Shown here one piece after another: positions 27,541 through 28,675 of a stretch of DNA of 64,000 bases; within the stretch, counting starts at the first letter, position 1, and every line of letters begins with the position of its first letter. The notes beneath the pieces were generated by a model, which saw only the letters and a list, made by a program, of their open reading frames with translations, made no database searches and was not told where the DNA came from. Position numbers and translations under genes: made by a program. Where the stretch lies: assembly GCF_026004055.1 (NCBI RefSeq), contig NZ_BPIJ01000001.1, positions 310,001-374,000 on the forward strand. The letters run 5' to 3'. The DNA is from Meiothermus sp. (GTDB taxonomy: Bacteria > Deinococcota > Deinococci > Deinococcales > Thermaceae).

Positions 27541-28539
27541 CTACCCGACCACCGGCTTTTGCAACAATTCGGCAATCTGTACGGCGTTGAGGGCAGCACC
27601 TTTGAGCAGTTGGTCGCCGGCAACAAAAAAGTCCAGCCCGTTGTCGAAGACCAGGCTCTGGCGAATGCGGCCCACCTCTACGTTAAACTTGCCGGTCGCG
27701 GTGAGCGGCAGCGGGTAGCGCTTCTGCGCCGGATCATCTACTAGGTCGACCCCAGGCGCACCTTTTAGCACCTCACGGGCCGCTTCGGGGCTCACCGGAC
27801 GTTCAAACTCCACCGTTACGGCCTCGGCGTGTACCCGCAGGGTTGGCACCCGAACCGCCGTGCAAGAAACCCGAATCTGTGAATCCCCCATGATTTTTTG
27901 GGTCTCCCAAAGCACCTTCATCTCTTCCTTGGTGTAGCCGTTCTCTTGGAAGGCGTCTATATGGGGAATGACGTTAAAGGGCAAGGGGTAAGCAAAGGTT
28001 TTGTGCTCCACAGGCTGGCCTGCCAGATACTGCCGGGTACCTTGCAGCAACTCCTCCATTCCACTCGCACCGGCGCCCGACGAGCTTTGGTAGGTGCTCA
28101 CAATCACCCGCTTGGCCCCAAAAGCTCTGTGCAGTGGATAAAGGGCCATTACCAGGATGGCCGTGGTGCAGTTGGGGTTGGCGATGATGTTTTTGTGCCC
28201 TTTAATTGCATGGGCGTTGATCTCTGGCACAATGAGCGGCACCGCCGGGTCGTAACGGAAGGCCGAGGAATTATCTATCACCACCGATTGTTGCGCCCAG
28301 AGCGGAGCATACTGCTTGGAGATACTCGCTCCCGCACTTGCAAGCACCACATCGACCGGCAAGGGAGTTTCGGGCAGCGCCTCGATGCCTATCTCCCTAC
28401 CACGAAACTTTTGGCTTTTGCCCGCCGAACGGGCCGAAGCATACAGCCGTAGCTCCGAAACAGGAAAGTTGCGCTTTTCCAGTACGCTCAGCAGCTCTTT
28501 GCCTACGGCTCCGGTTGCCCCCACGATTCCGATTCGCAT
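27541..28539 (-). CDS. asd: aspartate-semialdehyde dehydrogenase
   Basis: A 332-residue enzyme reducing aspartyl phosphate to aspartate semialdehyde, the branch point to lysine, methionine and threonine. It has the NADP-binding [14 protein letters not shown] at the N-terminus, catalytic Cys124 in [10 protein letters not shown], and [14 protein letters not shown]. The ATG at 28539 is chosen because AGGAG precedes it by 7 nt and the dinucleotide fold begins at once; an in-frame reading continues upstream to 28632 through the leader and is not coding. Expression is probably controlled by the leader terminator just upstream. Confidence 0.95.
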
Positions 28540-28555
28540 AGCACACTCCTTTAGG

Positions 28556-28584
28556 AAACAAAAAACCTGCCGGGATAGGCAGGC
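28556..28584 (-). terminator. leader terminator (attenuator candidate) upstream of asd
   Basis: On the minus strand, CCTGCC and GGCAGG form a 6-bp stem with a 6-nt loop followed by TTTTTTGTTT. It lies between the asd promoter and the asd ribosome-binding site, so it would stop transcription before asd unless bypassed. A further hairpin with 7-bp stem (GGCGACC/GGTCGCC, 28587-28613) sits between it and the leader peptide. Confidence 0.75.
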
Positions 28585-28613
28585 ATGGCGACCACTCGAG
28601 CTAAGCGGTCGCC

Positions 28614-28637
28614 TTAGGTAGTGGTATACCAAACCAT
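28614..28637 (-). CDS. candidate leader peptide MVWYTTT upstream of asd
   Basis: A seven-codon reading frame (ATG at 28637, stop TAA at 28614) whose last three codons are ACC ACT ACC, all threonine. The -10 box of the asd promoter ends 9 nt before its ATG, so it would be translated from a nearly leaderless mRNA, matching the start architecture of many genes here. It is followed directly by a hairpin and then an intrinsic terminator. This arrangement is that of amino-acid attenuation. The peptide is very short and translation is not proven. Confidence 0.5.
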
Positions 28638-28646
28638 CTCAGTAAA

Positions 28647-28675
28647 ACCATATGTGGAAGTCAAACAAAAGTCAA
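28647..28675 (-). promoter_or_regulatory. asd promoter
   Basis: On the minus strand, TTGACT (28675-28670) and TATGGT (28652-28647) with exactly 17 nt between. The predicted start near 28640 places the Thr-rich leader peptide at the 5' end of the transcript and gives a leader of about 100 nt before asd. Confidence 0.7.

Follow-up and report, generated by a model that had tools for sequence, protein, structure and literature searches.

In E. coli, the thrL and trpL attenuators combine a run of codons for the product of the pathway, a stop codon placed so that the ribosome masks the arm of the next hairpin, and an intrinsic terminator ahead of the first gene. Actinobacteria are known to have leaderless leader-peptide attenuators, which include thrL, leuL, trpL and ilvL of S. 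lividans, the first of which precedes thrS (PMC8079986), as well as the ilvB leader of C. diphtheriae (PMC5784534). For the C. glutamicum ilvBNC leader, mutational work supports an antiterminator and a terminator whose overlap is only about 3 nt (PMC11857589), which is the nearest precedent found for barely overlapping hairpins. Finally, leaderless short ORFs serve as polycysteine attenuators in mycobacteria (Canestrari et al. 2020, as cited in PMC9031893 and PMC13236596).

The locus considered here is the leader of asd, encoding aspartate-semialdehyde dehydrogenase, in a 64,000-nt stretch of Meiothermus DNA (the window). It shares with E. coli thrL and trpL the run of control codons, the hairpin arm masked at the stop codon and the terminator before the gene, but it has no Shine-Dalgarno sequence for the leader peptide, and no mutually exclusive hairpins were found in it; moreover, three to five Thr codons are packed into an ORF of seven to nine codons, whereas E. 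coli thrL is a longer, Thr/Ile-rich leader. With the actinobacterial leaders, which are transcribed leaderless, as the asd leader apparently is, it has in common a short ORF with control codons, followed by hairpins, often including a terminator, before amino-acid genes. It differs from them in its phylum, in its gene (asd, not thrS), in its length of 7–9 codons, in two hairpins (A and, downstream, the terminator T) without any overlap, and in a probable operator inside the ORF. The mycobacterial attenuators, as described in the papers that cite them, are leaderless, as the asd leader appears to be, and resemble it in pairing a short ORF and a single family of control codons with operon genes, the codons being for Cys there and for Thr here. 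The asd leader is best read as a Thr-codon, ribosome-mediated transcription attenuator, a reading to which we assign a probability of roughly 0.85. The principle is a known one, and what is new is the lineage, the gene, the non-overlapping hairpins and the probable operator inside the leader ORF. In the literature searched, outside which most subscription journals lay, no report was found of leaderless ribosome-mediated attenuation of amino-acid genes in Deinococcota.

The window gene is a real asd: it lies at 27541..28539 on the minus strand, with its ATG at 28539, matches NCBIfam asd_B and PRK14874, and has its closest named relative in M. hypogaeus, at 94% identity. On the same strand, a promoter scan places a -35 box TTGACT at 28670..28675, separated by 17 nt from a -10 box TATGGT (28647..28652). 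The mini-ORF ATGGTTTGGTATACCACTACCTAA (28614..28637), recognizable from the sequence and from the aligned leaders of relatives, starts with an ATG at 28637 and reads ATG GTT TGG TAT ACC ACT ACC TAA, which specifies the peptide MVWYTTT, its three Thr codons (ACC ACT ACC, 28617..28625) standing directly 5' of the stop. Hairpin A (28587..28613), defined by folding and covariation, begins directly 3' of the stop codon; two bases separate it from the GC-rich stem of the intrinsic terminator T (28565..28584), to which sequence, folding and covariation all point, and a T-run (28560-28565) and the asd ribosome-binding site AGGAG (28546..28550) follow. An earlier, sequence-only reading of this minus-strand region had placed the promoter, the start codon, the MVWYTTT ORF, the terminator, the ribosome-binding site and asd correctly; its first hairpin is also present where it was put, but comprises 11 pairs (seven perfect plus four more) rather than the seven reported. 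The window leader RNA has a much more stable fold than shuffled versions of itself (z = -5.5). It gave no match to Rfam covariance models, T-box and other cis-regulatory RNA families included, either at the gathering score or at E <= 5. A T-box-like interpretation of its UGGU motif was rejected, given the lack of an Rfam match and the absence of the motif from Calidithermus and from the metagenome-assembled leader L046; so was a hairpin in region 1 (UGGUUUGGUAUACC) as a regulatory stem, which reaches only -0.3 kcal/mol at 60 C in the window and whose sequence is replaced in Calidithermus.

The promoter scan picked up two promoter-like sites in 2.1 kb against 0.8 expected, so that the promoter by itself is weak evidence. 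Its arrangement relative to the mini-ORF recurs in all 23 leaders measured, each with a -35 box starting TTGA, a spacer of 17–18 nt and a TANNNT box that ends 6–9 nt short of the leader's start codon (9 nt in the window). Since transcription normally starts 6–8 nt after the -10 box, this spacing implies a 5' UTR of about 0–3 nt, and the leader transcript is thus apparently leaderless.

In order to follow the leader through its relatives, asd was identified in 50 genomes of Thermaceae and in 52 of 60 further genomes searched in the order. Every one of the 22 Thermaceae genomes that fall outside the Thermus lineage, the window's own included, has the leader, which keeps one order of elements throughout: an ATG or GTG start, a Thr run ending at the stop codon or one codon before it, the stop, hairpin A, hairpin T and a T-run. 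R1, a covariance model built from window-type leaders and their relatives, matches 22/22 Meiothermus-group genomes, 20 of which were in its training set, with E-values from 2e-17 to 3e-26 and each time upstream of asd; it is this comparison that decides the case for the leader being real. Three genomes of family f3 carry an asd leader too (MSQRFNNTTTI, MNVWYTTTTTI and MQFWNTTTTTK, each closed by a stop codon), and at least three consecutive Thr codons (three to five) occur in 25 of the 25 asd leaders from the two families taken together. Within the run the choice of codon varies between ACC, ACT, ACA and ACG, while the residues before it differ (VWY, SLAR, SQRFNN, NVWY or QFWN), as do those after it; both Calidithermus leaders, for instance, encode MSLARTTTT. 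Judged from these alignments, the Thr run is constrained and the residues around it are free to change. The Thr-codon leader, apparently leaderless and followed by a terminator before asd, that had been proposed for the window is therefore conserved across the 22 Meiothermus-group genomes, and the Thermaceae alignment which that proposal called for retains the Thr codons and the stems as neighbouring codons drift.

The converse pattern, in which the terminator is kept and the Thr codons are lost, had been named in advance as evidence against the proposal and was seen in only one genome, G052 of another family. Its asd leader, MKLASHICNIMITP, has Ile, Met and a single Thr codon, which makes it the sole exception to the Thr rule and a point against the attenuator reading. 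Upstream of Thermus-type asd no leader was seen at the eight loci inspected, and in families f4 and f5 no Thr mini-ORF with a terminator precedes the gene; Thr-rich peptides upstream of two f5 asd genes (L224 and L234) were rejected as leaders for want of a T-run terminator. Of the weak R1 matches in Thermus and other genomes (E 4e-5 to 0.009), the three inspected were set aside: L151 is a tRNA region, and neither L152 nor L153 is an asd leader. As a separate observation, locus L165 (G055:C11, about 340-440 of the locus) has the first asd codons repeated upstream of the real start, accompanied by a short insert, TACCTGATATTGACGCGAAGCGTCT, which is also found after the terminator in L166.

The two hairpins behave as conserved helices. 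Among 21 distinct leaders, 98.4% of the cells in the A and T helices are standard pairs, a proportion that falls to 29–48% when the partner columns are slid by 1–3 positions. Eight of the 18 pairs have changed on both sides, against a mean of 2.6 in shuffles, none of 500 of which reached eight. Since seven of these eight covarying pairs belong to A (7 of its 11 pairs), A is evidently under selection as a helix. An intrinsic terminator between the leader ORF and asd is predicted from sequence and folding in all leaders, and the gap from A to T is 0–3 nt in 23/23, with no base in common; the distance from T to asd, unlike this narrow gap, varies from 14 to 89 nt.

What the ribosome would do to these hairpins was computed by letting it cover 15 nt, counted from the first P-site base, a general value that may not fit Meiothermus ribosomes working on leaderless RNA. 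When the first Thr codon occupies the A site, the edge of the ribosome overlaps hairpin A by 0–1 nt in all 23 leaders, and with the ribosome at the stop codon 10–13 nt, essentially the whole 5' arm of A, are masked, again in 23/23. When the RNA is masked up to the stop-codon footprint, the folding probability of A is 0.0 in every leader. Thus, in each of the 23 leaders, the move from control codons to stop codon changes whether A can form upstream of T, and in this model A is the structure that starvation would allow and plenty would forbid. It holds the place of the antiterminator in a classical attenuator, yet has no base in common with T.

A classical attenuator of the thrL or trpL type, in which stalling of the ribosome would let a hidden alternative pairing take up one arm of T (5' or 3'), deserves consideration. 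Control codons, a hairpin beside the stop and a terminator are indeed the classical layout, and by eye short complementary GGC/GCC pieces can be made out in the 5' arms of both hairpins. Masked folding nevertheless gives T a probability of 0.93–1.0 in 22 of 23 leaders at any ribosome position (down to 0.6 in L016), and among the individual leader folds no alternative helix with T recurs, so that a classical switch seems improbable. An antiterminator of that kind was sought by manual inspection, by ribosome-masked folding and through recurrent helices, and none was found; the sequence-only reading, which had seen no obvious competing antiterminator by eye, is borne out by the masked folds of the 23 leaders. 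Its comparison with thrL holds as regards a Thr-codon leader with a terminator, and fails as regards mutually exclusive hairpins, T being predicted whether or not A is masked.

Since A and T are separate and the folds predict T in every masked state, base-pairing does not account for the switching, and the argument for it is a steric one. A terminator has to close all the way down, deep inside the RNA exit channel of the polymerase, and with a gap of only 0–3 nt there may be no room for both hairpins, hence the proposal of exclusion by adjacency. That A blocks the completion of its neighbour in this way is a tentative suggestion, somewhat short of even odds. Alternatively, A might help T or act as a pause hairpin, boosting termination or holding the polymerase for the ribosome, with ribosomes on the Thr codons disturbing it. 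Pause hairpins are known at the corresponding place in trp attenuators, A does adjoin T at 0–3 nt, and a ribosome at the stop codon would open it. However, a ribosome at the first Thr codon, the first stall point in starvation, hardly touches A in the 23 leaders, which means that starvation would not weaken it, and a pause hairpin has no need of contact with T; such a role is therefore considered unlikely.

Under the attenuator reading, the RNA would start at the leader ATG or 1–2 nt before it, and the ribosome would load directly on the 5' end. When Thr-tRNA is plentiful, the ribosome would reach the stop codon and cover the 5' arm of A, A would not form, T would be completed and transcription would end. 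When Thr is scarce, the ribosome would stall at the first Thr codon with its leading edge at or just before A, leaving A to form; T could then not also close at the RNA exit channel, and RNA polymerase would read into asd.

The mini-ORF also contains a palindrome, TGGTATACCA, which covers codons 3–5 and the first base of codon 6 (28622..28631, with no strand assigned). It occurs at nine sites in the window's own genome and at none for the reversed control sequence; it lies between the -35 and -10 boxes of two genes, leuC and a homocitrate-synthase-like one, and also upstream of a gene for a GntR/FCD regulator (G000:C3:125113-125754; L171, L123). A site of the form GGTATACC is found upstream of this regulator gene and recurs there in most orthologues; in the close ones it stands at about -18 to -37. 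The regulator itself was found in 20 of 22 genomes and is absent from two drafts, one of them 85% complete. The simplest reading of the palindrome is that a GntR/FCD operator is probably embedded in the leader ORF; the regulator gene is probably autoregulated, and its product possibly regulates asd, leuC and the homocitrate-synthase-like gene.

A more radical view would be that the mini-ORF is not translated at all, and that the leader consists of a GntR operator and a constitutive weak terminator. In 20 leaders from Meiothermus and the sister genus no variation is seen in the first 17 bases of the ORF (ATGGTTTGGTATACCAC), which span codons 1–5 and run into codon 6, and the palindrome within them is also present at the GntR gene and at two amino-acid genes, as such a view would have it. 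Yet the Calidithermus leaders and that of the metagenome-assembled genome (L046) lack the palindrome and still keep the frame, the Thr run, the stop position, A and T; because the Calidithermus leaders differ in those 17 bases, the attenuator does not need them to be invariant. In addition, one genome of family f2 (G051) has an asd and an ilvA leader that differ in their control codons as the two genes demand. An untranslated mini-ORF is, accordingly, very improbable. The attenuator reading accommodates the palindrome as a probable second input acting on the DNA, through a GntR-type operator in leader codons 3–6, and the resulting full explanation, a Thr-responsive, ribosome-mediated asd attenuator with exclusion between A and T and a second, DNA-level input, is judged likely. 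The more specific combination, in which an ON-state hairpin blocks T by contact across 0–3 nt and the same 24-nt ORF serves translation, amino-acid sensing and DNA binding, is put forward with greater reserve, as a possibility distinctly below even odds.

In the f2 genome, the asd leader MKFDSSTSNTTIF (L208) has TTI as control codons and the leader MKIQSSTPQIIIF (L163) of ilvA, which encodes threonine deaminase, has III; the two look homologous, pointing to an apparent duplication in which the control codons changed between Thr and Ile to fit the gene. Within the window's own genome, a scan for TTGAC-TANNNT promoters lying 5–9 nt before RTG returned 39 matches against 7 for the reversed control, and several of the 30 matches that were read are apparent leaderless leaders whose codons fit the downstream gene. 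For instance, an apparent leaderless Trp leader, MRIRTPRSYKWHHQRWWRGWP (L095; G000:C1:736314-736354, minus strand), precedes trpB and is accompanied by a terminator as well as by a hairpin at the stop codon. Another, MQTSRGFASQSARFFGYFYWPGVPVRLA (L097; G000:C1:804135 onward), with the Phe/Tyr pattern FF-Y-F-YW and a strong terminator, precedes the DAHP synthase of aromatic amino-acid synthesis. A Leu-Leu leader, MLVRVMQRLLSPTPGV (L101; G000:C1:907649), stands before leuC, and a Lys-Lys leader, MILSAKKSSAGGLV (L111; G000:C1:1668205), before the homocitrate-synthase-like gene; these last two have in common the word CTAGTCTG at the stop codon, in addition to TGGTATACCA between -35 and -10. The trpB leader has the stop-codon hairpin in common with the asd leader; those of the DAHP synthase, leuC and homocitrate-synthase-like genes fold differently. 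With several leaders of fitting codons in one genome, the asd device appears to be one of a set. A possible leaderless mini-ORF, MRFSARAIL (L112; G000:C2:33146-33185, minus strand), was also observed ahead of an aminotransferase-like gene; stable hairpins and a T-run follow it.

The Meiothermus lineage probably synthesizes lysine through the aminoadipate pathway, which would leave asd to serve Thr and Met, and control codons for Thr only fit this division. A Lys-Lys leader before a homocitrate-synthase-like gene is likewise consistent with lysine being made by that route. More broadly, the asd leader would bring leaderless ribosome-mediated attenuation of amino-acid genes to Deinococcota, and its very short leaders, with a rigid, conserved hairpin geometry and no antiterminator of shared bases, make it directly testable whether a neighbouring hairpin can stop a terminator on its own.
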